Below are positions 6,929 through 37,598 of a stretch of DNA of 64,000 nucleotides, piece by piece; position 1 is the first letter of the stretch; each line of letters opens with the position of its first letter. This stretch comes from Bacteroidota bacterium. Its GTDB lineage: Bacteria > Bacteroidota > Bacteroidia > 2-12-FULL-35-15. The translations under genes were made by a program, and so were the position numbers. Location of the stretch: positions 1 to 64,000 of the forward strand of contig JAOQAD010000003.1 of assembly GCA_025963775.1 (NCBI GenBank), written 5' to 3'. The notes under the pieces are model-generated. The model was not told where the DNA came from, did no database searches, and saw only the letters and a program-made list of their open reading frames with translations.

Positions 6929-6980
6929 TTGCCAATTGCCAACTGAAAAAATTGCTTACTGAATAATTGCCAACTGAATA
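6929..6980 (+). repeat. Short-period repeats just upstream of ftsL
   Basis: TTGCCAA recurs back to back (TTGCCAATTGCCAACTG, 6929-6945) and ACTGAATAA occurs twice, at 6958-6966 and 6973-6981, 15 bp apart. The second copy runs straight into the ftsL ATG. The same style of repeat precedes murC, yqeY, groEL, lptE, the arginase-fold gene and gldL in this window. Confidence 0.6.
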
Positions 6981-7397
6981 ATGGGAAACAAATTTAAAGA
7001 GCAGCCAAAAGCGGAAGAACCGGTAGCACCAAAAAAGCCTGCAAAGGAAAACAAGGTGGTGAAGTCGGTGGCGAGCGTTGTCAGCGGGAATTTCCTCTCA
7101 AAGGAAGCCACGCTGAAGAACCTGCCTTTCATCTTTTTTCTCTCCTTCCTCGCAATCTGCTACATCGCAAATGGATATTATGCCGATGACCAGGTGCGGA
7201 AAGTGAACAAGCTTACAAACGATATAAAGGAATTAAGGACACAATATATAGTAGTAAAAGATTCGCTGGTGGTAAAAAGCAAGCAGACAGAAATAGCAAA
7301 GGCCCTGGCGTTACAGCAAACAGGAATTAAGGAGAGCGTTGTGCCTCCTAAAAAGATCATAGTAAAAACAGTTAGCACCACCCCTCAACAAGATTAA
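6981..7397 (+). CDS. ftsL: FtsL-like cell division membrane protein
   Basis: Small bitopic divisome protein expected to pair with FtsB and FtsQ and to activate FtsWI. The 138-residue product has a charged, lysine/proline-rich cytoplasmic N-terminus, one membrane segment near residues 48-65 (LPFIFFLSFLAICYIANGYY), then a short periplasmic coiled-coil region (VRKVNKLTNDIKELRTQY). Sequence similarity to proteobacterial FtsL is low, as usual; the call rests on topology, length and its position between rsmH and ftsI. It ends 4 bases before the ftsI start codon. A tail rich in lysine and valine follows the coiled coil. Confidence 0.8.
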   Translation: MGNKFKEQPKAEEPVAPKKPAKENKVVKSVASVVSGNFLSKEATLKNLPFIFFLSFLAICYIANGYYADDQVRKVNKLTNDIKELRTQYIVVKDSLVVKSKQTEIAKALALQQTGIKESVVPPKKIIVKTVSTTPQQD

Positions 7398-7401
7398 AGA
7401 A

Positions 7402-9522
7402 TTGGAAGAAAGAAAAGACATACTGTGGCGTGTATATCTCATATATTTTATTATATGCCTTTTCGGTGTCGCTATTATTTCCAGGGTTTTCTTTATCCAG
7501 TTTTCTGAAGGCGACAAATGGAGAGCGCAGGCAGAAAAATTTTCAACCAGGGTTTTTGAAATAGAAGCAGTGCGCGGCAACATTTACGATGTGAATGGAA
7601 GCCTGCTCGCAACGTCATTGCCATACTTCGAAGCGGGCATGGATGTGAATACCGATGCGATCACAAAAAAGATTTTCGATGATAATGTAGATTCATTATC
7701 GCTCTGCCTTGCGGACCTTTTCAAGGATAAATCCTCGAAACAATACCGCAAAGAGCTTGTGAAGGCACGTAAGGACCACGATCGCTGGGTAGTGCTCCAG
7801 CGGGATGTTTCCTACACCGACCTGCAGAAGATGAAAAAATTCCCGATCCTCAGAAAGGGGAAAAACCGCGGAGGCTTTGTGTACCTGCAAACCAACAAGC
7901 GTGAACGGCCGTTCCAGTTCCTTGCTGCAAGGACGATCGGGAAGCTCAACGAGAACGGAACTGGAAAATCATACGGACTCGAAGCTGCTTTCGACAGTAT
8001 TCTTATCGGTACAACCGGTGAGCGTACCATGCAGAAAATTGCCGGCGGCGTATGGCGCCCGATCAATTCCGATAACGAGATCGATCCCAAAGACGGCTCT
8101 GATATCGTAACAACGATCGATATCAACGTGCAGGACGTTGCGGAAAATTCATTGAAAAATTGCCTGAGGCAGCACGGTGCCGATCACGGTTGCCTGATCC
8201 TGATGGAAATAAAGACCGGTGAAGTGAAAGCCATCGCGAACCTCAAGCGCAATAATAAAGATACTTCGCAATACCTGGAGAACTTTAATTATGCAGTGGC
8301 GCAGGCTACCGTTCCGGGATCAACTTTCAAGCTGCCTTCATTGGTTGCTGTGATGGAAGACTTTGATGTGAAGCTCGATGAGATAGTTGATATTGGTGAG
8401 GGAATCTGCTACTACAGTAATGTTCCCGTGCGTGATTCCCATCATCCGCAAAAAAGCAAGGTAACGGTGCAGGAGATTTTTGAAGAGTCTTCCAATGTTG
8501 GCGTCACAAAGATCATCACAAGATATTATGCAAAGGACCCGCAGAAATACATCGACCGCCTGTATAAAATGAATCTTGGAACGCCTTTAAAAATAGCCCT
8601 TCCGGGTGAAGCTGTTCCTTATATAAAAAATACGGACGACAAAACCTGGTCAAAGATCTCTCTTCCATGGATCAGCTACGGTTACGAATCAAGGATCACT
8701 CCATTGCAGATCCTGACATTTTACAGCGCAGTTGCCAACGATGGAAAAATGATGCGCCCCATGTTCGTGAAGGAAGTGAAGAAAAGAGGCAAGGTGATCA
8801 AGTCGTATGCTCCCGAAGTTATCAATGAAGCCATCTGCTCTAAGAAGACGGTGAATAAAGCAAAAAAAATGATGGAAGGCGTGGTGTTGAACGGAACAGG
8901 TAAAGCATTGAAAGCTTCGAACTACCAGATCGCAGGGAAAACAGGAACAGCGCAGATGGGAATGGTAAATGGAAAAATGACCTACCAGGCTTCTTTTGTC
9001 GGATACTTTCCGGCTGATAATCCTAAATATTCCTGCATTGTGGTGATCAGCGCACCAAGCGGGGATGCTTATTACGGCGGCGCTGTAGCCGGCCCTGTGT
9101 TCAAGGATGTGGCGGATAAAGTGTATTCAACGAGCCTGGAGATCCACAGGGAGATCAATGCCGTTCAGCCGCAGTATGCAATGAAAGCACCTGCCGTAAA
9201 GCAGGGCAGCAGGGAAGACATCGAAACAATTCTGAAGACATTAAAAATAAAAACAAATGCAGGAGATGAAAAAGCGGATTGGGTAAGTATCGTTTCAAAC
9301 GATTCTGTTTCTGTTTCACTCCAGTCGAAGAACACGGAAGATGCATTGAAGCGCGGCATTGTTCCGAACCTCATCGGGATGACTGCACAGGATGCATTGT
9401 ACCTGCTTGAAAATAATGGAATGCGCGTGAAGATCATCGGCAACGGCGCTGTTTCATCGCAGTCGATCGAGGCAGGAAAAACATTTACAAAGGGCACTCA
9501 AATTATTTTACAACTGATCTAA
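7402..9522 (+). CDS. ftsI: Penicillin-binding protein FtsI (PBP3) with C-terminal PASTA domain
   Basis: Septal peptidoglycan transpeptidase that works with FtsW. The 706-residue protein has an N-terminal membrane anchor (YLIYFIICLFGVAIISRVFF), a PBP dimerisation region (VRGNIYDVNGSLLATSLP) and a transpeptidase domain. The catalytic serine lies in STFK near residue 307, the SSN motif in EESSNVGVTK, and KTGT near residue 513. A PASTA-like domain (VPNLIGMTAQDALYLLENNG) closes the protein. The start is a TTG at 7402, four bases past the ftsL stop; no in-frame ATG lies ahead of the membrane segment. murE begins 4 bases after the stop, consistent with one operon. Confidence 0.96.
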   Translation: MEERKDILWRVYLIYFIICLFGVAIISRVFFIQFSEGDKWRAQAEKFSTRVFEIEAVRGNIYDVNGSLLATSLPYFEAGMDVNTDAITKKIFDDNVDSLSLCLADLFKDKSSKQYRKELVKARKDHDRWVVLQRDVSYTDLQKMKKFPILRKGKNRGGFVYLQTNKRERPFQFLAARTIGKLNENGTGKSYGLEAAFDSILIGTTGERTMQKIAGGVWRPINSDNEIDPKDGSDIVTTIDINVQDVAENSLKNCLRQHGADHGCLILMEIKTGEVKAIANLKRNNKDTSQYLENFNYAVAQATVPGSTFKLPSLVAVMEDFDVKLDEIVDIGEGICYYSNVPVRDSHHPQKSKVTVQEIFEESSNVGVTKIITRYYAKDPQKYIDRLYKMNLGTPLKIALPGEAVPYIKNTDDKTWSKISLPWISYGYESRITPLQILTFYSAVANDGKMMRPMFVKEVKKRGKVIKSYAPEVINEAICSKKTVNKAKKMMEGVVLNGTGKALKASNYQIAGKTGTAQMGMVNGKMTYQASFVGYFPADNPKYSCIVVISAPSGDAYYGGAVAGPVFKDVADKVYSTSLEIHREINAVQPQYAMKAPAVKQGSREDIETILKTLKIKTNAGDEKADWVSIVSNDSVSVSLQSKNTEDALKRGIVPNLIGMTAQDALYLLENNGMRVKIIGNGAVSSQSIEAGKTFTKGTQIILQLI

Positions 9523-9526
9523 AGGG

Positions 9527-10990
9527 ATGAAATTATTAAAGGACATACTTTATAAAGCAGGAATAATTGAAGTGGTAGGCACAACCAATGTCGCCATCAC
9601 TGCGATCAGCTTCGATTCCCGGAGAGTGGAGAAGGACAGCCTTTTTGTAGCCGTGAAGGGGACATTGAGCGATGGGCATAAATACATCAATGATACGCTT
9701 GCCAAAGGCGCCATCGCGGTGATGTGTGAGGAGTTTCCTGCGGAGATCAGCGAAAAATTCACCTATATAAAAGTAAAAGATACAACTGCCGCCTTAGGAA
9801 TTGTAGCCGCTAATTTTTACGACAATCCTTCTGAAAAAATAAAGCTGGTAGGTGTTACCGGGACAAATGGGAAAACGACCACAGTAACACTGCTGTTTAA
9901 TCTCTTCAAAAAGCTCGGCTATAAAACAGGCTTGCTCTCAACGGTGAAGAACCAGGTTAATAATGATGTGATCCCGGCCACTCATACAACACCGGATGCG
10001 ATCCAGCTGAATGCATTGCTGCGCCAGATGATCGACAAAGGATGCACACATTGCTTCATGGAAGTAAGCTCGCATGCCGTGGTGCAGAATCGCATTGCAG
10101 GCATCCATTTTACGGGCGGTGTGTTTACAAACATTACGCACGATCATTTGGACTATCATAAAACATTTGATGAGTACATCAAAGCGAAGAAGAGATTTTT
10201 CGATGCACTCGGTTCGGATGCATTCGCACTCACCAACAGGGATGATGCGAACGGTGAGGTGATGCTGCAGAATACACGCGCCACCAAACGGACGTACTCA
10301 TTACGCTCGATGGCTGATTTTAAATGCAAGGTGGTGGAGAACCAGTTCAGCGGCTTGCTGCTGAACATTGATAACCAGGAAGTGTGGAGCAAGCTGATCG
10401 GGAGCTTCAATGCTTATAACCTGCTTGCGGTGTATGCAACAGCGATCTTATTAAAGGAAGAAAAAACAAATGTGCTCACTACGCTGAGTACCTTGAATTC
10501 GGTGGAAGGCCGCTTCCAGTATGTACGCACAGAGAACGGCGTGATCGGGATCGTGGATTATGCACACACTCCGGATGCATTGATGAATGTATTGAAAACA
10601 ATAAATGATATCCGCACAGGCAACGAAAAAGTGATCACGGTGGTTGGCTGCGGTGGCGACAGGGATGCTGTAAAGCGCCCGGTAATGGCGAAGATCGCCT
10701 GCGACCTGAGCAACAAGGTGATCCTTACTTCAGATAACCCGAGAAGCGAAGAGCCGGACATGATCATCAAGGAAATGCAGGCTGGTGTGGACGGCGTGAA
10801 CCACAAAAAAACAATTGCGATGACAGACCGGGCAGAGGCGATCAAAACAGCATGCTCCTATGCAGAACCAGGCGACATTATCCTGATCGCCGGCAAAGGA
10901 CATGAGAAATACCAGGAAATAAAAGGCGTAAAGCATCCATTCGACGATATGCAGGTGTTACAGGAAAATTTAAAACTATTTGATAAATAA
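9527..10990 (+). CDS. murE: UDP-MurNAc-L-Ala-D-Glu:meso-diaminopimelate ligase MurE
   Basis: Cytoplasmic ATP-dependent ligase that adds the third residue of the peptidoglycan stem. The 487-residue protein has the three Mur ligase domains: an N-terminal UDP-binding domain, a central domain with the P-loop [11 protein letters not shown] near residue 108, and a C-terminal domain with the DNPRSEEP motif. DNPR is the signature for meso-diaminopimelate rather than lysine, so the cell wall should be of the DAP type. Its TAA stop overlaps the mraY ATG by one base. Confidence 0.96.
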
Positions 10991-12255
10991 TGTTCTACTA
11001 TTTATTCGACTTTTTAGACAAGCAATTGAATTTCCCCGGAGCCGGTGTATTTCAGTACATCTCATTCCGCGCGGCAATGGCACTCATCGTTTCATTGCTC
11101 ATCTCGATGGTGTTCGGGAAGCGCATCATCAATCTTCTTCACCGTAAGCAGGTTGGTGAAACCGTACGTGACCTTGGCCTGCAGGGACAGATGGAGAAAA
11201 AAGGAACACCTACAATGGGTGGTTTGATCATTCTTTCCGCGATTGTGGTGCCTACATTATTGTTTGCAAAGCTTCACAATGTGTACATCATTCTCATGCT
11301 TGTATCAACCGTGTGGCTGGGTGCAATCGGTTTCCTCGATGATTACATCAAGGTGTTCAAAAAGGACAAACAGGGATTGCATGGAAAGTTCAAGATCCTT
11401 GGACAGATCGGCATTGGGTTGATCGTAGGCATCACGCTTTATTTTAATGACGGCGTAGTGATCAAAGAGAAGGTGTTTGCAGGCAGGCAGGCTGCATTTG
11501 GGATAGAAGAGCCGAATACGATGGTCGCGACACGCGAAGCGGTTTATTCGAACGAGCAGACGAAATCTATGAAGACCACCATTCCATTTGTGAAGAACAA
11601 TGAGTTCGATTATTCCTCGCTGCTATCGTTCATGGGCGAAGGCTATGCGAAATGGGCATGGCTGATCTTTATTCCTTTTGTGATCCTTATTGTGACTGCC
11701 GTTTCAAACGGCGCAAACATCACGGATGGCATTGATGGGCTTGCAACCGGCACTTCCGCGATCATCGGCGTGGTGCTGGGTATCCTGGCGTATGTATCCG
11801 GTAACACCGTGTTTGCCGATTACCTCAACATTATGTACATCCCGAATTCAGGTGAGCTGGTAATATTTATTGCGGCATTTGTTGGTGCCTGCGTTGGCTT
11901 CCTCTGGTACAATTCATTTCCTGCGCAGGTGTTCATGGGCGATACAGGAAGCCTTGCACTGGGTGGCATCATTGCGGTGTTCGCTATTGCTATCCGCAAA
12001 GAACTGCTGATCCCGATCCTTTGCGGAGTGTTCCTCGTGGAAAATTTATCGGTGGTAATGCAGGTGGCTTATTTCAAGCGCATGAAGAAAAAATTCGGGA
12101 TCGAATATGCACGCGAGCACAGGCTGTTCAAAATGGCGCCCCTGCACCATCATTACCAGAAAACAGGAATGCATGAATCGAAGATCGTTTCACGCTTCTG
12201 GATCATCGGAATCATGCTTGCAGTATTAACGATTGTGACATTAAAATTAAGATAA
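10990..12255 (+). CDS. mraY: Phospho-MurNAc-pentapeptide transferase MraY
   Basis: Integral membrane enzyme that moves phospho-MurNAc-pentapeptide from UDP to undecaprenyl phosphate, forming lipid I. The 421-residue protein has about ten membrane segments and the family motifs: [34 protein letters not shown], and [18 protein letters not shown] with the conserved histidines. It is longer than the roughly 360 residues of E. coli MraY because of a loop insertion around residues 150-215, common in Bacteroidota. It overlaps murE by one base and lies 2 bases before murD. Confidence 0.97.
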
Positions 12256-12257
12256 CG

Positions 12258-13598
12258 ATGAAACGCCTCGTGATACTTGGTGGAGGAGAAAGCGGAGTAG
12301 GCACAGCGGTGCTGGCGCAAAAAAATGGTTATGAAGTTTTTCTTTCCGATAAAGGAAAGCTGAAGGATAAATACAAGGAAGTTCTTTTAAAATACGGAAT
12401 TGAGTGGGAAGAAGAGAAGCACACTGAAGCGCTGGTACTCAATGCGGATGAAGTGGTGAAAAGCCCCGGCATTCCCGACAAAGCGGAACTGGTGAAAGCG
12501 CTTCATGCAAAAGGTATTCCTGTGATCTCGGAAATAGAATTCGCAGGAAGGTACACGAAAGCAAAAAAGATCTGCATCACGGGAAGCAATGGGAAAACAA
12601 CAACAACGCTGCTTACCTATCACATGCTGAAAAAGGCGGGACTGAATGTAGGGCTTGGAGGCAACGTGGGAAAAAGCTTTGCCATGCAGGTCGCGGAAAA
12701 TGATTTCGATTACTATGTGCTTGAGCTGAGCAGTTTTCAGCTCGACGGAATGTATGAGTTTAAAGCGGACATCGCGGTATTGCTAAACATAACTCCTGAT
12801 CACCTTGACAGGTATGATTACAAGTTAGAGAACTATGCCGATTCCAAATTCAGGATCATAAACAATCAAACAGCGGATGATGCATTCATTTACTGCATAG
12901 ATGACGAAGTAACAATGAGCACAATTACAAAAAAGAAGGTCAGTGCAAAACAGTACCCTTTTTCGATCAAAAAGGAGCTGGAGACAGGAGCGTATTTAAA
13001 AGACAACAATCAGCTAATAATCAACACAAACAACACAAATCCCTTATTTATGACAATTCAGGAACTAGCATTGCAAGGTAAACACAACATCTACAACTCC
13101 ATGGCGGCAGGTGTTACAGGAAAATTAGTTGATATCAGGAAAGAGACGATCCGCGAAAGTCTTTCCGATTTCCATAACATCGATCACCGCCTCGAGATCG
13201 TTGGAAACGTTCACGGGATCGAGTTTATCAACGACTCAAAAGCAACCAACGTGAATTCCACATGGTATGCGCTCGAGAGCATGAACAACCCTGTGATCCT
13301 TATCCTTGGCGGAGTGGATAAAGGAAATGATTATTCCATGCTGAATGAATTGGTGAAAGAAAAAGTAAAAGCGATCATCTGTTTAGGGACAGATAACAAA
13401 AAGATCATGAAGGCTTTCGGCGGGATGGTGGATACCATCCTCGAAGCGAAATCCGCAAAAGAAGCGGTAGCACAGGCTTACAAGCTTGGCAAAAAAGGAG
13501 ACACCGTGTTGTTGTCGCCTGCCTGCGCAAGCTTTGATATGTTTGAGAACTATGAGGACCGCGGGACCCAGTTCAAACAGGCTGTCCGCGCCTTGTAA
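12258..13598 (+). CDS. murD: UDP-MurNAc-L-alanine:D-glutamate ligase MurD
   Basis: Cytoplasmic ligase that adds D-glutamate to UDP-MurNAc-L-Ala. The 446-residue protein starts with a Rossmann-like domain (RLVILGGGESGVGTA), has the ATP-binding P-loop ITGSNGKTTTT near residue 113, the NITPDHLDRY motif, FINDSKATN, and the C-terminal motif LLSPACASFDMFENYEDRG followed by TQFKQAV. It is complete. Just downstream lies a short second copy of this C-terminal motif in a separate frame. The gene follows mraY by 2 bases; the 137-base gap to ftsW is the largest between genes in this part of the cluster. Confidence 0.96.
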   Translation: MKRLVILGGGESGVGTAVLAQKNGYEVFLSDKGKLKDKYKEVLLKYGIEWEEEKHTEALVLNADEVVKSPGIPDKAELVKALHAKGIPVISEIEFAGRYTKAKKICITGSNGKTTTTLLTYHMLKKAGLNVGLGGNVGKSFAMQVAENDFDYYVLELSSFQLDGMYEFKADIAVLLNITPDHLDRYDYKLENYADSKFRIINNQTADDAFIYCIDDEVTMSTITKKKVSAKQYPFSIKKELETGAYLKDNNQLIINTNNTNPLFMTIQELALQGKHNIYNSMAAGVTGKLVDIRKETIRESLSDFHNIDHRLEIVGNVHGIEFINDSKATNVNSTWYALESMNNPVILILGGVDKGNDYSMLNELVKEKVKAIICLGTDNKKIMKAFGGMVDTILEAKSAKEAVAQAYKLGKKGDTVLLSPACASFDMFENYEDRGTQFKQAVRAL

Positions 13599-13621
13599 AA
13601 TGCTGATTTGTGTTTTAAAAA

Positions 13622-13732
13622 ATGGTGGAGGATGTTGTGTTGTTCTCTTCCACCTGTCGGCGATCTGCTTTTGATACGTACAGGAGCCGCGGCAATGAAT
13701 TCAAAAGAGTAATAAAAGAATTGAGAGGATAA
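13622..13732 (+). pseudogene. Leftover second C-terminus of murD
   Basis: A 36-codon stretch between murD and ftsW reads VVLFSSTCRRSAFDTY followed by RSRGNEFKRVIKELRG and a stop. It lines up with the true MurD end (TVLLSPACASFDMF, then ENYEDRGTQFKQAVRAL), keeping the VL.S..C...FD and RG.(E/Q)FK pattern but with small gaps. A TAA lies in frame just before its ATG. The simplest reading is a decayed duplicate of the murD 3' end, left by a tandem duplication or a recombination with a diverged murD. Whether the 36-residue peptide is translated is unknown. It ends 3 bases before the ftsW ATG, so it may still couple translation into ftsW. Confidence 0.65.
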
Positions 13733-13735
13733 ACA

Positions 13736-15983: not shown

Positions 15984-16018
15984 CTTAGTGAAGCTAAGTG
16001 GCCTTAGTGCCTTAGTGG
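15984..16018 (+). repeat. CTTAGTG-type short repeats upstream of murC
   Basis: CTTAGTG or its close variants occur four times in 35 bases (15984, 15994, 16003 and 16011), ending 7 bases before the murC ATG. There is no obvious hairpin with a T run. This belongs with the other short-period repeats placed just before start codons in this window. Confidence 0.6.
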
Positions 16019-16025
16019 AAAAAAA

Positions 16026-17453
16026 ATGAAAGACATAACACACATCTATTTCCTTGGCATCGGCGGCATCGGCATGAGTGCTTTGGCCCGCTATTTCCAC
16101 GCCATGGGAAAGCAGGTGAGCGGTTATGATAAAACACCTACAAAGCTCACGGATGAACTGATCGCGGAAGGCATCAGCATTCATTTTGAAGACAATGTTG
16201 ATCTGATCCCGGAAGGCTTTAAATCTAAGGGGCCGGGTTCTGCATCTCACATCTCACATCTCACATCTCACATCCTGATCGTTTACACACCTGCTGTTCC
16301 AAAAAGCCACAGCGAATACGTTTTTTTTAATAGTAATGGGTTTAACATTAAAAAAAGGGCTGAGGTATTAGGGTTGATCACCGAATCTGCGCGTACGATC
16401 GCTGTGGCCGGAACACATGGTAAAACAACAACATCATCATTGGTGGCGCATATCTTAAAAACAGCCGGATTGGATCCTTCCGCGTTTTTAGGCGGTATTA
16501 CGCAGAATTATAAAACAAATCTTTTGTTGAGTGCAGGTTTAAAAACCTCCGGCCTCCAGTCTCCGGCCTCCAACCTTGTAGTCGTTGAAGCCGATGAGTA
16601 CGATCGCTCTTTTCTGACCCTGCACCCGGAGATCGCTGTCATCACTTCCGTGGATGCCGATCATCTTGATATCTACGGCGACAAAAGCCATGTGGAAGAA
16701 TCATTCTCCATGTTTGCCGACCTTGTGGAAGAAAAACTGATCGTGAAGAAAAGCATCGCTGAAAAGATCCGTTCTTCAAAGCACCCGCTGACCTATTCCG
16801 TGGATGACCGGTATGCCGATTATCATGCATCCGACATCCGCATCGAAAATGGTTATTATCATTATAACATTCACACTCCGAAAGGCATTATGCAGAATTG
16901 CACAATGGGCCTGCCCGGTAAGCACAATGTGGAGAATTCGGTCGCAGCAACGGCCATCGCCTGTGAGCTGCACATTTCGGAAGTGTATATAAAAGAAGCA
17001 TTGCGGACGTTCGGTGGCGTGAAGCGCCGCTTCGACTACCAGGTGAAAACCGACAAGATTGTGTACATAGATGATTATGCGCATCACCCGGAAGAGCTCA
17101 AAGCAACGATCAGTTCGGCGAGGGAAATGTACCCTGGAAAAAAGATCACCGGAGTTTTTCAGCCGCACCTGTTCTCCCGCACCCGTGATTTTGCGGATGA
17201 CTTTGCGAAAAGCCTCGACCTGCTGGATACATGCATCCTGCTGGAAATTTATCCTGCACGTGAATCGCCGATCGATGGCGTGAATTCACAAATGCTGCTG
17301 GATAAGATGAAGAGTGCTGATAAAATGATCTGCCAGAAAAAAGACCTTGTGGAAGAGATCGCAAAAATAGGAGTGGAAGTGCTGCTTACGATGGGCGCCG
17401 GCGATATCGATACATTGGTGGAGCCGCTCAGAAATAAACTATTGCAAAAATGA
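16026..17453 (+). CDS. murC: UDP-MurNAc:L-alanine ligase MurC
   Basis: First amino-acid ligase of the peptidoglycan stem. The 475-residue protein has the N-terminal GIGGIGMSALARYF motif, the P-loop AGTHGKTTTSS near residue 133, VEADEYDRSFL, DYAHHPEEL and a C-terminal GAGDID segment. Two surface regions are unusual. Residues about 72-84 (ASHISHLTSHI) come from a 7-bp tandem repeat, and residues about 174-183 (SGLQSPASN) come from a 14-bp repeat. Both look like in-frame additions between otherwise conserved blocks, and both keep the conserved motifs intact, so the enzyme is probably active. Confidence 0.95.
   Translation: MKDITHIYFLGIGGIGMSALARYFHAMGKQVSGYDKTPTKLTDELIAEGISIHFEDNVDLIPEGFKSKGPGSASHISHLTSHILIVYTPAVPKSHSEYVFFNSNGFNIKKRAEVLGLITESARTIAVAGTHGKTTTSSLVAHILKTAGLDPSAFLGGITQNYKTNLLLSAGLKTSGLQSPASNLVVVEADEYDRSFLTLHPEIAVITSVDADHLDIYGDKSHVEESFSMFADLVEEKLIVKKSIAEKIRSSKHPLTYSVDDRYADYHASDIRIENGYYHYNIHTPKGIMQNCTMGLPGKHNVENSVAATAIACELHISEVYIKEALRTFGGVKRRFDYQVKTDKIVYIDDYAHHPEELKATISSAREMYPGKKITGVFQPHLFSRTRDFADDFAKSLDLLDTCILLEIYPARESPIDGVNSQMLLDKMKSADKMICQKKDLVEEIAKIGVEVLLTMGAGDIDTLVEPLRNKLLQK
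16243..16274 (+). repeat. 7-bp tandem repeat inside murC
   Basis: CATCTCA is repeated four times head to tail plus a partial fifth copy. It is read in frame as part of MurC (ASHISHLTSHI) just before the conserved LIVYTPAVP block. Because 7 is not a multiple of 3, a gain or loss of one unit would shift the frame. Confidence 0.85.
16547..16572 (+). repeat. 14-bp direct repeat inside murC
   Basis: CTCCGGCCTCCA occurs at 16547-16558 and 16561-16572, separated by GT. It encodes a serine/proline-rich loop directly before the conserved VVVEADEYDRS motif of MurC. Its base composition is richer in C than the flanking coding sequence. Confidence 0.8.
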
Positions 17454-21385: not shown

Positions 21386-21410
21386 TTAAGCTTGAACAAA
21401 CAACAGGAAC

Positions 21411-21440
21411 GCCCCGCAAATTGCGGGGCGCTTTGTTTTA
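21411..21440 (+). terminator. Terminator after ftsZ
   Basis: A perfect 9-bp GC-rich stem (GCCCCGCAA, 21411-21419, with its complement 21421-21429) is followed by GCTTTGTTTTA. It lies 25 bases past the ftsZ stop and probably ends most dcw transcription. It has nearly the same stem as the secA terminator. Confidence 0.8.
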
Positions 21441-21460
21441 TTCCGGAGAATAAATTTTGT

Positions 21461-21500
21461 TTAACTTTAAACTTTCAAACTCTAAACTTTTAAACTTAAA
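21461..21500 (+). repeat. AACTTTAAACTTT-type repeats upstream of yqeY
   Basis: AAACTT or close variants recur four to five times in 40 bases with a period of 8-11, ending 7 bases before the yqeY ATG. The same word appears before gldL and within the lptE repeat array. Confidence 0.55.
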
Positions 21501-21506
21501 ATAAAT

Positions 21507-23153: not shown

Positions 23154-24837
<1,684 letters not shown>

Positions 24838-24909
24838 ATGTTGGGATTAGCGATTGGAGGAATAAGCAGGAAATTTACTTCTCTATTTCTCCAATTCAAA
24901 AACGCTCAA

Positions 24910-27539: not shown

Positions 27540-27561
27540 TAATTAACTATTTTAAATACAC

Positions 27562-27688
27562 AGTACGTCAACCTGGAACTTTAAATTTAACACATAAAGT
27601 ACGTCAACCTGGAACTTTAAACTTAAACACAAAGTACGTCAACCTGGAACTTTAAACTTAACAAACACAGTACGTCAACCTGAAACTA
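27562..27688 (-). repeat. Four-copy 36-bp tandem repeat upstream of lptE
   Basis: The word AGTACGTCAACCTG occurs at 27562, 27598, 27633 and 27669, a period of 35-36 bp. Each of the first three copies continues GAACTTTAAA(C/T)TTAA. The array fills the space between the sigma-54 activator gene and lptE and ends close to the stop codon of the former. It has no spacers of unique sequence, so it is not a CRISPR. Function unknown. Confidence 0.85.
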
Positions 27689-28927: not shown

Positions 28928-28934
28928 TTGTTAA

Positions 28935-29258: not shown

Positions 29259-29302
29259 TGCTTTATGATGCTGTTAATTTTATTTTTTATTCCTGCAATT
29301 GC

Positions 29303-29354: not shown

Positions 29355-29389
29355 AATCTTTTACTACAGCAAGCCTTGTTTAAAGAACG

Positions 29390-30820: not shown

Positions 30821-30838
30821 TTTCTTTTTAATGGATTG

Positions 30839-30868
30839 CAAAGGTAACAAAAATTAGTGTATGACAAA
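30839..30868 (-). promoter_or_regulatory. Promoter of miaB
   Basis: On the minus strand TTTTG/TTTG (complement of CAAA at 30865-30868) is followed after 18 bases by TACCTTTG (30846-30839), an exact TAnnTTTG match. Transcription would begin near 30833, leaving a leader of about a dozen bases before the ATG at 30820. Confidence 0.65.
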
Positions 30869-30945
30869 ATGGCGCAATTTGATATTCTGAAAAAAAATTT
30901 TGAAATTTTTATATATATATTTATATATATAGTTCCTGACAAATG

Positions 30946-30978
30946 CAAATCAAATTTGGAAAAATCAATTTTGATTTG
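30946..30978. promoter_or_regulatory. Inverted repeat between miaB and topA
   Basis: CAAATCAAA (30946-30954) and TTTGATTTG (30970-30978) form a perfect 9-bp inverted repeat with a 15-base centre in the divergent miaB-topA region. A run of alternating T and A lies at 30910-30931. The repeat could be an operator, but there is no further evidence. Confidence 0.35.
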
Positions 30979-31061
30979 TTTTCTTTGCAACGTTTTTCAG
31001 GAAAATGACCTCTCCTGAGATATTCTTTGTTTTTCATATTACTCTAACGAAAAGGAATTAA

Positions 31062-33515
31062 ATGAGCAAAAATTTAGTGATTGTTGAGTCCCCTGCTAAG
31101 GCAAAAACCATAGAAGGATTTTTAGGAGAAGGATATACGGTAAAATCAAGTTTCGGGCACGTCCGCGATCTTGCAAAGAAAGGGCTCGGGGTTGATATAG
31201 AAAACAAGTTCACTCCCAATTACGAGATCTCGCCCGACAAGGCAAAAGTTGTTGCCGAACTGAAAAAATTAGCAAAGGCGGCCGACATGGTTTGGCTCGC
31301 AACCGATGAGGACCGTGAAGGAGAGGCCATCTCCTGGCATCTCTACGAATCCCTTAACCTTACCGATGCAAAAACAAAACGCATCGTATTTCACGAGATC
31401 ACAAAGCCGGCAATAAAAAATGCGATCGCCAATCCGCGCACCATCGACAAACACCTTGTGGATGCACAGCAGGCACGAAGGATCCTCGACCGTCTGGTTG
31501 GTTTTGAATTATCGCCGGTGCTTTGGAAAAAAGTGCGTCCATCCCTGTCAGCAGGGCGTGTGCAGTCGGTAGCCGTTCGTTTGATCGTGGAGCGCGAACG
31601 TGAAGTGATGAGCTTCAAAAGCACATCTTCCTATAAAGTAGTTGCCAATTTCACCTCCGGAAACTCCAATATAAAAGCCGAGCTGAACAAGAAATTCGTT
31701 TCGCACGAAGAAGCAAAAGCATTTTTGCAGAAATGTGAAGCAGCTGATTTCACTATTGATACAATAGAAACAAAGCCTTCTAAAAAATCGCCTTCCGCAC
31801 CTTTTACAACATCTACATTGCAGCAGGAAGCAAGCCGTAAGCTTGGTTTTTCCGTTGCCCAGACAATGGTGGTTGCGCAGCGGTTGTATGAAAGCGGTAA
31901 GATCACCTACATGAGGACCGATTCCGTGAACCTTTCGGAAACAGCCATCAACCAGGCCAAGGCAGCCATCACCGGGAATTACGGTGAGAAATACCTCAAC
32001 ATCCGCCAGTACAAAACCAAATCAAAAGGCGCACAGGAAGCTCACGAGGCCATCCGTCCCACCTATATCGAGAACCAGACCATTGATGGCGATTCCGCCG
32101 ATAAGCGTTTGTATGACCTTATCTGGAAACGCACCATTTCCTCGCAGATGAGCGATGCCGAATTGGAAAAAACAACAGCAGTAATCACCGTTTCCGGCGC
32201 AACCGAAAAATTTGTTGCACAGGGTGAAGTGTTGAAATTTGACGGTTTCCTGAAAGTGTATCTCGAAGGAACCGATGAAGAAGATGAAGACAACCAGGAA
32301 GGGATGCTTCCGCCGATGAAAGTGGGCGAAAAGCTGGGCGTGAACGAGATCAATGCAACGCAGCGGTTCACGCATTATCCTGCACGGTACACCGAGGCAA
32401 GCCTTGTGAAAAAGCTCGAGGAGCTCGGTATCGGAAGGCCATCCACCTATGCGCCGACCATCTCCACCATTCAGAAGCGTGAGTACGTTGTGAAAGAGGA
32501 CAGGGAAGGAGTGGAAAGAAATTACAATGTGATCTCCTTGAAGAATAAACAGATCGCTGAAGAAGTGCGCACAGAGCGCACAGGAGCTGAAAAATCAAAA
32601 ATGTTCCCGACCGATATCGGCATGGTGGTGAATGATTTCCTGCTGAAGGAATTTCCACAGATCATGGATTTTAATTTCACTGCAAAAGTGGAAGAGGAGT
32701 TTGATGAGATCGCCGAAGGAAAGATCAACTGGACCAAAATGCTTGCTGATTTTTACAAGCCCTTTCATAAAAATGTAGAAGATACTTCTGAAAATTCGGA
32801 GCGCGCATCCGGCGAGCGTTTGTTGGGAGTTGATGCCGTAACAGGCAAGAACCTGTATGTACGGATCGGCCGCTTTGGCCCGATGGCACAGCTTGGAGAA
32901 GGCAACGATGAAAATAACAAGCCGAAATTTGCAAGCCTCAGAAAAGATCAGCGCCTCGATACCATCACCTTTGAAGAAGCGCAGGACCTCTTCAAGCTTC
33001 CGCGTGTTGCCGGCGAATTCGAAGATAAGGAAATGGTGGTGGCAATTGGCCGTTTCGGCCCGTATATCCGCCACAACAGTATTTTCGTTTCCCTGAAAAA
33101 GGAAGATGATCCGATGACCGTTTCAGCCGAACGTTGTGTGGAGCTCATTCTTGCAAAGCGCCAGGCAGAGATCGATAAGTACATCAAAACATTCCCTGAG
33201 AATCCCGAAGTGCAGTTACTCAACGGGCGTTGGGGCCCTTACCTCGTGATCGGGCAGAATAATTTCAAGCTTCCGAAAGGGATCGATCCGAAAGCATTGA
33301 CCCTGCAGGAATGCCTCGATATTGCCGCAGACCCTAAGAACGCAAGCAAAGGAAACCGCTTCAAGAAAAAAACGGTGGAGAAAAAACCGTTCAAGCAGGC
33401 AGCAGCCAAAAAAGCGTCTCCGAAAAAAGCAGCACCTAAGAAAGCAGCCAAAAAATCTGCAAAGAAGGCTGCGCCTAAAAAAGCGGCGAAAAAAGCAGCT
33501 CCTAAAAAAGTTTAA
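31062..33515 (+). CDS. topA: DNA topoisomerase I (type IA)
   Basis: Relaxes negative supercoils by cutting one strand through a tyrosine. The 817-residue protein opens with a TOPRIM domain (LVIVESPAKAKTIEGFLGEG; the acidic motif ATDEDREGEAISWHL), has the catalytic tyrosine in ITYMRTDSVN near residue 283, and the GIGRPSTYAPTIS motif. The C-terminal part has topoisomerase repeats around RIGRFGPMAQLGEG and AIGRFGPYIRH, without the four-cysteine zinc fingers of E. coli TopA. The last 45 or so residues are a lysine/alanine/proline-rich tail resembling histone H1, likely to add non-specific DNA binding. Confidence 0.96.
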   Translation: MSKNLVIVESPAKAKTIEGFLGEGYTVKSSFGHVRDLAKKGLGVDIENKFTPNYEISPDKAKVVAELKKLAKAADMVWLATDEDREGEAISWHLYESLNLTDAKTKRIVFHEITKPAIKNAIANPRTIDKHLVDAQQARRILDRLVGFELSPVLWKKVRPSLSAGRVQSVAVRLIVEREREVMSFKSTSSYKVVANFTSGNSNIKAELNKKFVSHEEAKAFLQKCEAADFTIDTIETKPSKKSPSAPFTTSTLQQEASRKLGFSVAQTMVVAQRLYESGKITYMRTDSVNLSETAINQAKAAITGNYGEKYLNIRQYKTKSKGAQEAHEAIRPTYIENQTIDGDSADKRLYDLIWKRTISSQMSDAELEKTTAVITVSGATEKFVAQGEVLKFDGFLKVYLEGTDEEDEDNQEGMLPPMKVGEKLGVNEINATQRFTHYPARYTEASLVKKLEELGIGRPSTYAPTISTIQKREYVVKEDREGVERNYNVISLKNKQIAEEVRTERTGAEKSKMFPTDIGMVVNDFLLKEFPQIMDFNFTAKVEEEFDEIAEGKINWTKMLADFYKPFHKNVEDTSENSERASGERLLGVDAVTGKNLYVRIGRFGPMAQLGEGNDENNKPKFASLRKDQRLDTITFEEAQDLFKLPRVAGEFEDKEMVVAIGRFGPYIRHNSIFVSLKKEDDPMTVSAERCVELILAKRQAEIDKYIKTFPENPEVQLLNGRWGPYLVIGQNNFKLPKGIDPKALTLQECLDIAADPKNASKGNRFKKKTVEKKPFKQAAAKKASPKKAAPKKAAKKSAKKAAPKKAAKKAAPKKV

Positions 33516-33591
33516 AATAAAAACAACCCGTTCTCCTGTATCTTTTTTAACACCCCGGTGTTATAAGTTTAAAGATACAAGGGAAGGGCAT

Positions 33592-33680
33592 ACAAATTTG
33601 CATTTCGTAAATTCGTACAAACAATTTGTAATTCGTATAGATTCGTATTTCGCAGGAAATACAAATTCGCATTTCGCAGG
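33592..33680 (+). repeat. ATTCGTA/TTTCGCA short repeats upstream of the arginase-fold gene
   Basis: Within 89 bases the words ATTCGTA, TTTCGTA, ATTCGCA, TTTCGCAGG and ACAAATT recur, with TTTCGCAGG at two sites 22 bases apart. The array ends about 15 bases before the ATG at 33695. No stem with a T run is evident. Confidence 0.6.
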
Positions 33681-33694
33681 CAAACCCTTTATCC

Positions 33695-34864
33695 ATGCAG
33701 GAATACTTTAGTCCTATTGACCTTTCCGAGCTAAGCGGCAACCGTTCGTACAACGATACGTCTTACGGTAAGATCATAAATAGTTATCAGCAGAACAGCG
33801 GCTTCCCGGATCTCAGCACAGTGCAGCTGGCCATCATCGGAGTGGAGGAGGATCGCAGGGCCATTAACAATGAAGGCTGCGGGCTTGCTGCAGATTACGT
33901 AAGAGAAAACTTATACCATTTGTTCCAGGGCGGATACGCCGCAAAGATCGCCGATCTCGGGAACATCCGGAAAGGAAATACAATTGAAGATTCATACTTT
34001 GCTTTAACTGACGTTCTTTCACAATTACTGAAAAAAAACATCATTCCCATCGTGATCGGGGGAGGGCAGGATCTCACATACTGCAACTACCTTTCCTACC
34101 AGAAAATGGAGCAGACCATCAACATCGTTTCGGTGGATTCATCCTTCGATATCGGTGATGGCGACAAGGAACTGAACTCGCAGAGCTACCTCAGCAAGAT
34201 CATCCTGCACAAGCCGAACATACTGTTCAACTACAGCAACATTGGTTACCAGACCTATTTTGTTGAGCAGAATGCGATCGAGCTCATGGATAAGCTCTAC
34301 TTCGATGCACACCGCCTCGGACAAGTGAGGAAGAACATGGAGAATGTGGAACCGATCGTTCGTAATGCAGATGTGCTGAGCTTCGATATCTCCGCCATTC
34401 GCCAGGGCGATGCACCGGGTAACGGGAATGCATCACCCAATGGTTTCTATGGAGAGGAAGCCTGCCAGGTATGCCGCTATGCGGGAATGAGCGATAAGCT
34501 CTCATCGGTCGGCTTTTACGAGATCAACCCGGCCTTCGACAGCAACAGGCAAACGGTGCACCTCGTGGCACAGATGATCTGGTACTTCATCGACGGGTTT
34601 TATAACCGCAAGCAGGATTACCCGATCGTTGATAAATCGGAATACACGAAATACCGCGTATCCATTACGAACCACGAGCATGAGATCGTTTTTTACAAGA
34701 GCAACAAGAGCGACAGGTGGTGGATGGACGTGCCTTACCCGGTAAATCACCAGATCCGCTTCGAACGGCACCACATGGTTCCCTGCTCGTACAGTGACTA
34801 TGAGACGGCCTGCAGCGATGAGCTACCCGACAAATGGTGGCAGACATACCAGAAACTCGGCTAG
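33695..34864 (+). CDS. Arginase-fold (ureohydrolase) protein with a degenerate metal site
   Basis: A 389-residue protein of the arginase/agmatinase/formimidoylglutamase superfamily. The three metal-binding motifs can be placed, but half of the ligands are changed. GGGHD is GGGQD (Gln125 for His). The D-x-H-x-D motif is D148-S-S-F-D152 (Ser150 for His). The S-F-D-x-D motif is SFDIS (Ser233 for Asp, Asp231 kept). A two-manganese hydrolase should not work with these changes, so a binding, scaffold or other non-catalytic role is likely. It is often annotated formimidoylglutamase, which I would not accept here. The gene sits between topA and porP. Confidence 0.8.
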   Translation: MQEYFSPIDLSELSGNRSYNDTSYGKIINSYQQNSGFPDLSTVQLAIIGVEEDRRAINNEGCGLAADYVRENLYHLFQGGYAAKIADLGNIRKGNTIEDSYFALTDVLSQLLKKNIIPIVIGGGQDLTYCNYLSYQKMEQTINIVSVDSSFDIGDGDKELNSQSYLSKIILHKPNILFNYSNIGYQTYFVEQNAIELMDKLYFDAHRLGQVRKNMENVEPIVRNADVLSFDISAIRQGDAPGNGNASPNGFYGEEACQVCRYAGMSDKLSSVGFYEINPAFDSNRQTVHLVAQMIWYFIDGFYNRKQDYPIVDKSEYTKYRVSITNHEHEIVFYKSNKSDRWWMDVPYPVNHQIRFERHHMVPCSYSDYETACSDELPDKWWQTYQKLG

Positions 34865-34911
34865 TGGCGCGGCATAAATTTTTACCTATGAACAATAAAA
34901 TGTTTAAAAAA

Positions 34912-34942
34912 TTTGTTTTTATAAACATTATACTTAATTTAG
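34912..34942 (+). promoter_or_regulatory. Promoter of porP
   Basis: TTTG at 34912-34915 is followed after 19 bases by TAATTTAG (34935-34942), one base from TAnnTTTG. The spacing is the usual one for Bacteroidota housekeeping promoters. Transcription would begin near 34948, about 50 bases before the porP ATG. Confidence 0.55.
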
Positions 34943-34998
34943 CGACCTAACAACAACCAACAAGCAACACAAAACTGTTCACTTTTAAGAAGTAAAAC

Positions 34999-35961
34999 AT
35001 GAAAAAAACCCTTACTACTATTGCTTTATCGATTACCGGATTGGTAGCCTTTGCACAGCAGGATGCGCAATTCAGTATGAACATGTTTAATAAATTGTCG
35101 GTGAACCCGGGATATGCCGGAACAAGCCAGGCTTTATGCGGAACATTGTTGTATCGTGATCAGTGGGATAAATTCCCCGGAGCTCCTAAAACAGGGCTTT
35201 TTAGCCTTGACTACGGAAGGATCCTCGGCGGAGGGCTTGGTTTGACTGTGGACCAGGATCAGTTGGGTTTTGATAAAACATTAAAAGCGAAGCTGGCGTA
35301 TTCATACCATTTGAATTTAGGTTTTGGAACACTCGGTATCGGGCTTGATGCAGGTATGATCCAGAAATCGATCACCGGAAACTTCCTCGCACCAGACGGA
35401 ACAACGGCTGCAAACGGTACGGATCAGTCAATTCCATGGAACGGGACATCTGCTACAACATACGATGTTGGTTTCGGAGCTTATTTTACAAACAGCAAAT
35501 TGTATTTGGGGATCTCTTCACTGCACCTTCCGGGACAAACATTATCAAGCTCCGGGACGGCAAATGTAGCTTACTCATTTCAGTACCAGATGGCACGTCA
35601 CTATTTTATCATGGCAGGTTACAAATTTGACCTGACCCCGGATTTCAGCATCACGCCTGGTATCCTTGCTAAATCGGATGCGTCATCAACACAGGTTGAT
35701 ATCAACATCCTTGCGAAATACAAGAACATGATCTTTGTAGGAGCTTCATATCGTTTAACAGATGCGATCCCTGTAATGGCAGGTTTGGAGTGGCCGTTGA
35801 AAAGCGGAAGGTCAACAGTTAAAGTTGGTTACTCTTACGACATTACCTTATCCGCTATCAAAAAATACAACAGTGGAACACACGAAGTAATGTTAGGTTT
35901 CTGTCAGAAATTTGTAAAACCGCCGCATAAACAAAGTCACCAAAACGTAAGGTTCCTTTAA
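34999..35961 (+). CDS. PorP/SprF family type IX secretion membrane protein
   Basis: A 320-residue outer membrane protein with a signal peptide (TTIALSITGLVAFAQQDAQ). The conserved start of the mature part (FSMNMFNKLSVNPGYAGTS, LCGTLLYRDQWDKFPGAP) and the repeated beta-strand patterns identify the PorP/SprF family, which helps outer membrane steps of type IX secretion and gliding. It is the first of the gld genes here, 133 bases upstream of gldK with an inverted repeat in between. Bacteroidota genomes have many PorP paralogues; next to gldKLMN this is the likely core copy. Confidence 0.93.
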   Translation: MKKTLTTIALSITGLVAFAQQDAQFSMNMFNKLSVNPGYAGTSQALCGTLLYRDQWDKFPGAPKTGLFSLDYGRILGGGLGLTVDQDQLGFDKTLKAKLAYSYHLNLGFGTLGIGLDAGMIQKSITGNFLAPDGTTAANGTDQSIPWNGTSATTYDVGFGAYFTNSKLYLGISSLHLPGQTLSSSGTANVAYSFQYQMARHYFIMAGYKFDLTPDFSITPGILAKSDASSTQVDINILAKYKNMIFVGASYRLTDAIPVMAGLEWPLKSGRSTVKVGYSYDITLSAIKKYNSGTHEVMLGFCQKFVKPPHKQSHQNVRFL

Positions 35962-36021
35962 TAAAAAAGCTTTTTGTAACCTTATCTGATTACTATCGTT
36001 TAAACTACCCTGTTTTCTTCT

Positions 36022-36056
36022 GAAATCATCATACTTTATATATGTATGATGATTTC
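36022..36056. promoter_or_regulatory. Perfect 13-bp inverted repeat between porP and gldK
   Basis: GAAATCATCATAC (36022-36034) and GTATGATGATTTC (36044-36056) pair without mismatch around a 9-base TTTATATAT centre. No T run follows on either strand, so it is not a standard terminator. It may be an operator, an mRNA-processing hairpin or a stability element that separates porP from gldK. Confidence 0.7.
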
Positions 36057-36094
36057 TGACAAAAAGGGGTTTAATATAAATTAAAACAAAAAAC

Positions 36095-37537
36095 ATGAAA
36101 AAGTTGCTCTTGTTAAGTTCTGTAGTCGCTTTAGCCAGTTGTACTAAAAGCAGCGGAGAGCTTGTAGGTGTTCACCCACGTGAGGAGTGGTTCGATATCG
36201 ATCCCTTCGGCATGCTGTACATCCCTATGGGAAGTTACAATATGGGTCCGAGTGATGAGGATACCCCTTACTCTCACACCACGAAGTCGAAGACGGTTTC
36301 CGTTCAGGCTTTTTACATCGACCAGACAGAGATTTCAAACAATGAGTACCGCCAGTTCGTGAACTGGGTAAGGGATTCGATCGCACACAAAGCATTGTTC
36401 GAAGATGGAAGGGCTGAGCACGGACTTGAAACAGATGATTATGACCAGCCACTTGAGCCACCTTTGGTGAACTGGGATGAGGATATCGCATACGATGAGC
36501 AGGATGTAAGAGAGGTTCTTGAGTTTATGTACCTTCCACCGGAAGAGCGCTATTACAGGAGAAGAGAAGTTGATACCCGTAAATTGAATTACGAATATTA
36601 CTGGATCAACCTCAAAATGGCTGCGCAGAAATCAAACAGGTTCAAACCTTCCAAATCACCGGATGACAAAGGCCGCGATTTTATCACTGGTTACCAGTCT
36701 ACCAGCGTTGGTGATAACAAGACACTCGGTCATTATGATGTAAAAGATCAGATCTCTGACGGAAGCGGTAACTACAGTGTCCGTGAAACAAAAGACAAAG
36801 ACAGAAGTGTGTTTATTGTGAAGGACATTATCAACATCTATCCCGATACACTTGCATGGGTTCATGATTTCACTTATTCCTTCAACGAGCCGATGACCAA
36901 TATGTATTTCTGGCATGTAGCTTATGATGACTATCCTGTAGTAGGTGTAAGCTGGAAACAGGCAAGGGCATTCTGTATCTGGAGGACACAATTGTTCAAC
37001 AACTGGCTGCTCATGAATGGACAAACCTATGTGAACGATTTCCGTTTACCTACTGAGTCTGAATGGGAATACGCAGCACGCGGAGGAAATGCATTAAGCC
37101 CATATCCTTGGGGTGGTCCTTACATCAGGAATGCTCTCGGATGTTTCCTTGGTAACTTCAAGCCAATGCGCGGAAGCTACATCGATGACGGCGGTTTCCA
37201 CACTGTGAAGATCATGTCTTACAACCCTAACGATTACGGTTTATATTGCATGGCAGGCAACGCAGCAGAGTGGACAAGCAATGCATTTGATGAATCAGCA
37301 TACGATTTCAGCCACGATCTGAACCCTGACTATGTATACGAAGCTCAGGACAATGAAGCAAACGTACTGAAACGTAAAGTGATCAGGGGCGGGTCCTGGA
37401 AGGATGTTGGATACTACCTGCAGACCAGCTCAAGAACTTATGAATACCAGGATACGGCGAAATGTTATGTTGGGTTCCGTTGTGTTCAGACCTACCTTGG
37501 ACGTAACAGGGGCGATGCTCCGGGTAATGGCTTTTAA
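36095..37537 (+). CDS. gldK: Type IX secretion lipoprotein GldK
   Basis: Outer membrane lipoprotein that forms the periplasmic ring of the type IX secretion system with GldN. The 480-residue protein has a lipobox (VVALASC) after a short signal peptide, then a formylglycine-generating-enzyme-like (SUMF1) fold: FYIDQTEISNNEYRQFVNW, GVSWKQARAFCIWR, RLPTESEWEYAARGG, and the C-terminal KVIRGGSWKDVGYYLQ and CYVGFRC. GldJ is a paralogue of the same fold; the position directly before gldL favours GldK. Confidence 0.93.
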   Translation: MKKLLLLSSVVALASCTKSSGELVGVHPREEWFDIDPFGMLYIPMGSYNMGPSDEDTPYSHTTKSKTVSVQAFYIDQTEISNNEYRQFVNWVRDSIAHKALFEDGRAEHGLETDDYDQPLEPPLVNWDEDIAYDEQDVREVLEFMYLPPEERYYRRREVDTRKLNYEYYWINLKMAAQKSNRFKPSKSPDDKGRDFITGYQSTSVGDNKTLGHYDVKDQISDGSGNYSVRETKDKDRSVFIVKDIINIYPDTLAWVHDFTYSFNEPMTNMYFWHVAYDDYPVVGVSWKQARAFCIWRTQLFNNWLLMNGQTYVNDFRLPTESEWEYAARGGNALSPYPWGGPYIRNALGCFLGNFKPMRGSYIDDGGFHTVKIMSYNPNDYGLYCMAGNAAEWTSNAFDESAYDFSHDLNPDYVYEAQDNEANVLKRKVIRGGSWKDVGYYLQTSSRTYEYQDTAKCYVGFRCVQTYLGRNRGDAPGNGF

Positions 37538-37580
37538 TTTTAATGTGTAATCTCTAATCTAAACTAAATAATCAATTATT

Positions 37581-37598
37581 AACTTTTAAACTTTTAAA
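37581..37598 (+). repeat. AACTTTT repeat before gldL
   Basis: AACTTTTA is repeated twice head to tail just before the gldL ATG at 37602, and TAATCT occurs twice slightly upstream (37548-37560). These are the same type of words as those before yqeY and lptE. Confidence 0.5.

Follow-up and report, generated by a model that had tools for sequence, protein, structure and literature searches.

Bacteroidota rarely use Shine-Dalgarno pairing, and short tandem heptamers like those described here are known from the cyanobacterial STRR sequences. A close described counterpart is the TAACTGA heptamer, whose direct repeats occur in Beggiatoaceae, Cyanobacteria and five Bacteroidetes, with 12 of the 14 sets in F. 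litoralis lying before starts, according to MacGregor (2015, PMC4679880). TAACTGA repeats resemble ours in being short tandem heptamers in gaps, often right before starts, and in preceding essential genes without a clear function class; they consist of one word, with rare word neighbours and one indirect repeat, whereas the arrays analyzed here use many words and show mirrored arms, copies beside stops and words that are replaced from one close species to the next. Heptamer periods are likewise found in the long simple sequence repeats of 5-11 nt of prokaryotes, for which slippage was proposed (Mrazek 2007, as cited in PMC4679880); arm matching and polarity set ours apart from these. REP/REPIN palindromes with their RAYT transposases (PMC3733652, PMC3116915) are also small dispersed intergenic palindromes, whereas ours have stems of tandem words, a highly variable sequence and no word arrays at the Y1_Tnp loci examined. 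Finally, translational-coupling structures, as reviewed in PMC12548453, place RNA structure between a stop and the next start with spacing that matters, but cover the ribosome-binding site, whereas here the last 16 nt are open and hairpins occur in many gaps of one operon. Among the open-licence PMC papers listed by our searches, no title or abstract opening describes mirrored word hairpins in operon gaps.

The window is the whole stretch of 64,000 nt that was analyzed, and it comes from contig C32 of a 3.33 Mb assembly that is 65% complete (G000); G-numbers denote genomes, which include 35 further members of its genus, and L-numbers are loci. A Pfam search confirmed the genes, with FtsL_2 and GldL among the hits; this gene content and GroEL matches to named Bacteroidota records, at up to 84% identity, assign the window to Bacteroidota. 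An Rfam scan of the window gave 0 matches at gathering score. Stretches making up 37% of G000 (1.23 Mb, window included) yielded a sample of 683 gaps, with genes called by a simple hexamer gene finder whose start positions are possibly inexact. Tandem repeats were taken from TRF at scores of 30, 36 and 44 and compared with 20 shuffles per gap set, and fold z denotes the folding of a gap relative to shuffled sequence. All tests treated arrays and genomes as independent, though neither truly is.

The initial annotation had named at least seven genes in the window, seven of them listed, with tandem words near the start codon. Tandem repeats are indeed present at six of the seven, in five cases as start-side arrays (Table 1), TRF arrays ending at most 9 nt from the start of ftsL, murC, yqeY, groEL and gldL. 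The number of start-side arrays stays at five because the lptE array, although present with its 36-nt unit, starts at the upstream stop codon and is therefore stop-side, and because the words before the arginase-fold gene are irregular: seven TTCG[TC]A words are there, with no TRF array at a score of 30 or above.

Table 1. Repeat features of the window and their positions
Feature	Position	Strand	Description
rsmH(mraW)-ftsL gap	6912..6980	+	start-side TTGCCAACTGAAT-like units at 6934-6980, up to the ATG (TRF: 6934-6982)
murG-murC gap	15984..16025	+	CTTAGTG words, two 8-nt copies at 16001-16017 (TRF)
CATCTCA x4.6 within murC CDS	16243..16274	+	frame-keeping word expansion (TRF, protein alignment)
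Gap 5' of yqeY	21386..21506	+	terminator-like hairpin (inverted repeat 21410-21430), then start-side AACTTT array 21463-21501
groES-groEL gap	24792..24909	-	start-side array 24798-24836, CACTAATTC/CACTAAATC units in sense
groES-groEL gap, after groES stop	~24878-24909	-	G-type stretch
36-nt-unit array after stop of gene upstream of lptE	27552..27687	-	stop-side, G-type in sense (TRF)
Irregular TTCGTA/TTCGCA words 5' of arginase-fold gene	33604..33678	+	dispersed word family
AACTTTTA x2.2 5' of gldL	37581..37598	+	start-side, partner arm absent (TRF)

Between species, the arrangement of copies varied at ftsL and was constant at gldL, whose gap is conserved in G014 and G016. The rsmH(mraW)-ftsL gap of G014 (59 nt) has the same words in a different arrangement, and that of G016 is longer, with TTGGCAA-type words on the stop side and a fold z of -2.2. 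At murG-murC, G014 carries an unrelated GC-rich palindrome and G016 merely 14 nt; the yqeY gap has a decayed form in G014, different words in G016 and no array in G007; and G-type words of the lptE gap are also found in G014, G016 and G013. The array gaps of the window mostly folded no better than shuffles (fold z of +1.7 for ftsL, -0.2 for murC, -0.3 for groEL, +0.6 for lptE and +1.1 for gldL), and the yqeY and arginase gaps do fold, via upstream terminator-like hairpins.

In the 683 gaps of G000 the arrays clearly exceeded composition-matched shuffles, the control by which the annotation had proposed to judge them. At TRF scores of at least 44, co-directional gaps (n = 468) held 22 arrays (shuffle mean 1.35, maximum 3), convergent gaps (n = 96) held 4 (mean 0.2, maximum 2) and divergent gaps (n = 119) held 3 (mean 0.9, maximum 4), the excess in divergent gaps being clear just at lower scores (15 vs 3.65 shuffled at score 36). 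A first sample of 437 gaps gave 2.57 arrays per 10 kb at score 44 versus 0.48 in coding DNA, where periods that are not multiples of three accounted for 0.13 per 10 kb. A 60-nt window test with a threshold of at least 11 on the ungapped self-score identified 10 of 225 co-directional and 2 of 158 divergent upstream windows, and 4 of 138 co-directional and 1 of 94 convergent downstream windows, against 2 of 182 windows lying farther upstream and none of 596 in coding sequence.

Array density at score 36 was nearly the same in co-directional, divergent and convergent gaps (5.68, 5.63 and 5.22 per 10 kb). Random placement of the G000 arrays in their own gaps would put 20.9 of them at most 20 nt from a start and 18.9 at most 20 nt from a stop; the observed numbers were 34 (p = 6.5e-4) and 31 (p = 7e-4). 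For five relatives the corresponding counts at score 30 were 15 vs 11.3 expected at starts and 11 vs 9.6 at stops, neither significant, and at score 36 they were 11 vs 6.9 (p = 0.045) and 7 vs 6.0. The annotation had tied the repeats to start codons; because convergent gaps are equally dense and stops are hugged as much as starts, this tie does not hold, and a start-specific function was rejected as a general rule. The TAACTGA repeats are mostly forward and near a start, whereas here stop-side arrays are as frequent relative to expectation, and the TAACTGA unit was absent among the listed TRF units of the window and the G000 gaps. A translational regulator that binds the words, a role suggested for the TAACTGA heptamer, would fit the shared position before starts (MacGregor 2015, PMC4679880), but one locus carries many unrelated words within one genus and convergent gaps are just as dense, and we regard this as the least probable of the explanations considered.

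Start-side arrays were distinguished by their composition. Over positions -40 to -1, the 31 leaders with such arrays had less G (0.05 vs 0.15) and more A (0.40 vs 0.35) than the 583 others, C did not differ, and the minimum free energy of -40 to +30 was -4.3 vs -6.9; in F. johnsoniae, initiation benefits from low structure near the start and from A upstream of it (PMC6847099). Self-match profiles peaked at 7 nt and 8 nt upstream of starts and at 7 nt after stops. When the top 5% of windows were removed, G000 starts still had a weak self-match at 8 nt on their upstream side (z 5.6), which may reflect position-dependent base composition; after stops, an 8-nt excess was absent (z 1.5). Faster turnover of array gaps was considered and rejected: identity was 0.80 in 8 array gaps vs 0.75 in 23 others when compared with G014 (p = 0.46), and 0.60 in 7 vs 0.61 in 15 when compared with G016 (p = 0.83).

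Such features would be accommodated by replication slippage in unconstrained DNA together with base composition: gaps would accumulate short tandem duplications without any element or selected structure, and close to starts, where the landing site has to stay free of structure, only the G-poor ones would be retained. The poverty of start-side arrays in G and the self-match peaks speak for this explanation, as do the last 40 nt before groEL, which, whether an array is present or not, contain 0-2 G in 28 of 30 genomes, and the array gaps, whose conservation between G000 and G014 is no lower than that of other gaps. Support also comes from the murC coding sequence, where the CATCTCA array amounts to seven additional residues relative to G014 and G016 and nine relative to G007 in protein alignment; here a dispersed word has expanded inside coding sequence without breaking the frame. 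However, slippage alone leaves unexplained the matched opposite arms, the 53:2 arm polarity described below, the polarity in convergent gaps and the recurrence of words in many gaps, and we consider it unlikely as a complete account. The slippage origin raised in the annotation stands as one ingredient, supported by the expansion in murC, and falls short of the whole explanation.

The annotation was correct in describing a shared architecture with words that differ by locus. It had concluded from this that no single dispersed sequence was involved; several words do exist, but some of them are dispersed families. TTCGTANNTTCGTA, which consists of TTCGTA pairs, occurred 28 times in G000 vs once for a control pattern read backward, was present in 36 and absent in 44 of the 80 genomes of a class-wide draw, and was strong in G042 (60), G093 (44), G024 (36), G050 (27) and G100 (24). 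Within the genus, 20 of 36 genomes contained AATCTCANATCTCA, G000 having two copies.

The arrays were also polarized within their gaps. On the plus strand, arrays of G000 were G-type at left gap ends (20:11) and C-type at right ends (27:10; Fisher p = 0.003), and those of five relatives followed the same order (13:4 and 12:5; p = 0.015); at score 36 this left/right polarity had p values of 0.15 in G000 and 0.002 in the relatives. In gene sense, start-side arrays of G000 were C-type (26:11, p = 0.02) and stop-side arrays G-type (21:10, p = 0.07), with ratios of 15:5 and 10:4 in the relatives; at score 36 the gene-sense polarity in G000 was not significant (12:5 and 9:6). Single words, whose counts within one array are not independent, gave TTCGTA as 7 forward and 33 reverse in the left half of G000 gaps and 37 and 14 in the right half (p = 2e-7). 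The strand also depended on the half for ATCTCA (p = 0.03), AACTTT, CTTTGCG, CCAACT, TCTGCG and CCAATTA (p = 0.03) in G000, and this dependence did not reach 0.05 there for CTAATT, CTTAGTG, TTGCCAA, AATCTGTG and CACTAA; in the smaller sample of relatives AACTTT alone differed by half (p = 0.04). Convergent gaps keep the order (1:5 and 5:2 for TTCGTA, 0:2 and 6:0 for CTTTGCG), and the polarity therefore follows an inverted-repeat rule rather than a start-codon rule.

Both arms of such inverted repeats can be seen in relatives. We viewed 18 places in ten relatives, and nine of these were close opposite-strand pairs forming long hairpins with tandem-word stems, all nine (L212-L220, picked by eye among the matches listed) having the reverse-complement arm on the left; these nine cover two words only, and L215 has an extra reverse word further right. 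The remaining places were mostly single-arm arrays, with L225 mirrored too, and start-side arrays in relatives frequently formed the right-hand half of a mirrored structure. Many mirrored 7-mer matches look like chance. Across 36 genomes, counting forward matches, TTACGAA..TTCGTAA occurred 151 times, the reverse order 42 times and the backward-read control 207 times, and with the control above the observed count an overall excess was rejected; single genomes did show one, namely G019 (26, control 8), G008 (15, control 2), G011 and G017 (12 each, control 6 each) and G032 (12, control 5). TTGAGAT..ATCTCAA occurred 46 times in the 36 genomes (control 13) and in reverse order 22 times (control 9). 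A strict search of the G000 sample found no word palindromes, those in named records stood at 5 to 1, and ordinary G000 gaps, of which 120 of 192 folded, had no arm polarity (22 to 21). GC-rich inverted repeats in G000 gaps had the C-richer arm on the 5' side in 44 cases and the G-richer in 16 (p = 4e-4), the opposite of word hairpins.

Palindromes dispersed by a Y1 (REP-associated) transposase or something similar, with no host role, would account for near-identical copies in different gaps and for the long palindromes with a common outer sequence in G042 (L212-L215), and Y1_Tnp genes were present in 28 of 31 genomes searched, with three in G000. REP elements flank their transposase gene, but of the nine Y1_Tnp loci examined eight gave an ORF, and the flanks of these eight, judged by eye, had no word arrays and short palindromes or none. 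Dispersed intergenic palindromes are present in the relatives and, on a strict search, absent from G000, and the words are far more variable than known REP families; we hold transposition of this kind to be improbable. Short GC palindromes adjoin L199 (G000 C38) and other Y1_Tnp loci, and similar palindromes lie in gaps of G000 C18.

Word hairpins were abundant in the ribosomal-protein (r-protein) operon, for which we analyzed 379 gaps from 29 genomes of the genus. Among the 210 gaps of at least 40 nt, 108 had a fold z below -2 and 64 below -3, and 89 had a word score of at least 10; folding with z < -2 was found in 64 of these 89 vs 44 of the 121 others, and in G011 both properties were combined in 11 of 13 gaps of at least 40 nt. 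Word hairpins of 55-135 nt occupied 56 gaps in 19 of the 29 genomes (ten in G011, one in G000), and none were found in this operon in the other ten. Their arms consist of 7-8 nt words, and the 5' arm was G-richer in 53, C-richer in 2 and equal in 1. The non-word hairpins gave 19, 7 and 4, respectively, and all hairpin gaps of 55-135 nt (n = 86) had the G-richer arm first in 72 and the C-richer in 9. At the median of these 86 gaps, pairing begins 5 nt past the stop and ends 16 nt (IQR 12-20) before the start, compared to a head and tail of 7 and 7 nt in shuffled gaps. Hairpin gaps measure about 81 nt (IQR 72-86), of which 24 nt (IQR 19-29) lie outside the hairpin, vs 19 nt (IQR 9-29) for whole gaps shorter than 45 nt; gap by gap, the outside length did not track short-gap length (Spearman 0.33, p = 0.38, nine gaps). 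The last 15 nt of r-protein gaps are 69% A and 4.7% G.

In 11 of the 12 r-protein gaps compared (at least five genomes each, kinship ignored), own halves paired better than species-swapped ones (p = 2e-4 to 0.011), so that pairing is kept while sequence changes, as in structured RNAs; no arm matching was found by this test at rpsN-rpsH (p = 0.67), and rpsQ-rplN includes conserved non-word structures. The rpsE-rpmD gap has at least four word dialects (AACTTT, CAAATT, ATCTCA and CACTAAATC). The own right half was the best partner of all in part (6 of 10 for rplF-rplR, 3 of 19 for rpsE-rpmD), because dialects are common to several species. Furthermore, pairs of different gaps reached a local score of at least 25 in 58 of 264 cases within a genome vs 285 of 5322 between genomes (p = 1e-8), and without G011 in 36 of 209 vs 157 of 4290 (p = 0.002), G009 alone giving 15; 58 of 61 nt are common to two gaps of G011. 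In other families of the class, 30 loci (58 genomes matched) comprised 146 gaps, 17 of at least 45 nt; 12 of these 17 had z < -2, five of them from two loci of this genus, and outside the genus one clear word hairpin was present in the 30 loci (L312, G093).

Stable hairpins between cistrons are also what terminators, attenuators or mRNA processing and stability elements that set expression along operons would look like, and convergent gaps of G000 fold strongly (mean z -4.5, n = 26). The r-protein hairpins, however, are AT-rich and followed by A-rich rather than T-rich sequence, and the GC-rich inverted repeats are polarized the other way, which makes this explanation highly improbable.

The groES-groEL gap, viewed in 30 genomes of the genus, has differing words at the same place: CACTAATT in G000 and G007, AACCAATT in G014, G016 and G026, and TTTCAAATT in G015 and G033. 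Many of these gaps have ACGAAT or TTGGAGAA words on the stop side, and a clear array was missing in, for example, G004, G005 and G022. Own halves paired better than swapped halves across 28 genomes (p = 0.0026); fold z was below -2 in just 2 of the 30 gaps and near 0 in G000. Outside the genus groE hairpins were commoner, 8 of 16 gaps chosen for folding having z < -2. G000 shares its gap words with G007 (GroEL 97% identical) and not with G014 (99%; L142, L144 and L143), the best match to G000 in the last 48 nt before groEL being 0.88 for G007 vs 0.50 for G014; judged from the sequences, this suggests gap exchange or repeated replacement. Array density at score 36 in groE neighbourhoods (79 of 80 records, grouped by record titles, L089 with its Streptomyces-bin title left out) was 17.6 per 10 kb in Cytophagales (4 loci, the high-scoring arrays all in L130), 13.8 in Chitinophagaceae-like records (13 loci), 10.6 in Sphingobacteriaceae (9), 8.8 in unnamed records (19), 6.8 in Bacteroidales (25) and 2.9 in Flavobacteriales (9).

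Altogether, these computations show that dispersed inserts occupy gaps of this genus, that the inserts are self-complementary, and that tandem words of 7-8 nt often make up their arms. A G-type arm follows the stop, and its reverse complement, C-type and poor in G, precedes the next start; words vary by species and gap, halves match within a gap, and copies recur across the gaps of a genome. Matched-arm word hairpins between r-protein genes of the genus are well supported. The arrays of the window are likely arms or decayed halves of such inserts at some loci, judging by words, polarity and relatives, and at yqeY, gldL and murC the data hint weakly at the same origin; some solitary start-side arrays probably grew by slippage. 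Against this reading stand the array gaps of the window, most of which fold no better than shuffles, and the scarcity of word hairpins in G000. We propose that in mRNA the insert would fold and would therefore loop itself out, leaving about 24 nt outside the hairpin, comparable to an ordinary gap, with stop and start held close. The 15-16 nt directly upstream of the ATG, rich in A and almost without G, would stay open for ribosomes that land there without Shine-Dalgarno pairing, and translation of neighbouring genes may stay coupled; spacing is thereby part of the model. Inserts that fail to fold back, or that structure the start, would be lost, and words would therefore be free to turn over. 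Taken as a whole, genus inserts with the window arrays as their arms or remnants and loop-out as the mechanism form the best explanation, which we favour tentatively, at slightly under an even chance, because groE gaps of the genus seldom fold.

Matching arms could alternatively arise by copying of one arm onto the other, for which selection is not needed. A more specific reading of the r-protein hairpins, to which we give somewhat less credence than to the overall explanation, is that a common shape rather than a common sequence defines the class: the inserts, nearly constant in size, would spread between gaps, and their stems would be rewritten word by word or exchanged for a different word family without loss of pairing, of the G-to-C polarity or of the open 16-nt leader; they would act as self-removing spacers that preserve operon translation. 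If this is true, these gaps amount to a natural experiment on how RNA evolves, in which species of a single genus reach the same fold with unrelated words between the same pair of r-protein genes. It would then be testable how Bacteroidota cope with, or make use of, structure between cistrons and by what route short-word repeats spread and remain matched in two arms, and a new question would be raised for the heptamer repeats of other phyla.

Other repeats were observed beside these arrays. In a named Bacteroidetes record (L066, 3868-4118), a 172-nt TAACTGA/TAACTAA array ends 8 nt before a predicted start. In the window, a TTTATATATATA repeat at 30905-30931 lies in the divergent gap before topA and is kept in G014, G016 and G013 and altered in G005, and a 27-nt imperfect repeat at 33450-33510 lies in Lys/Ala-rich codons, close to where the gene at 31062-33515 ends.
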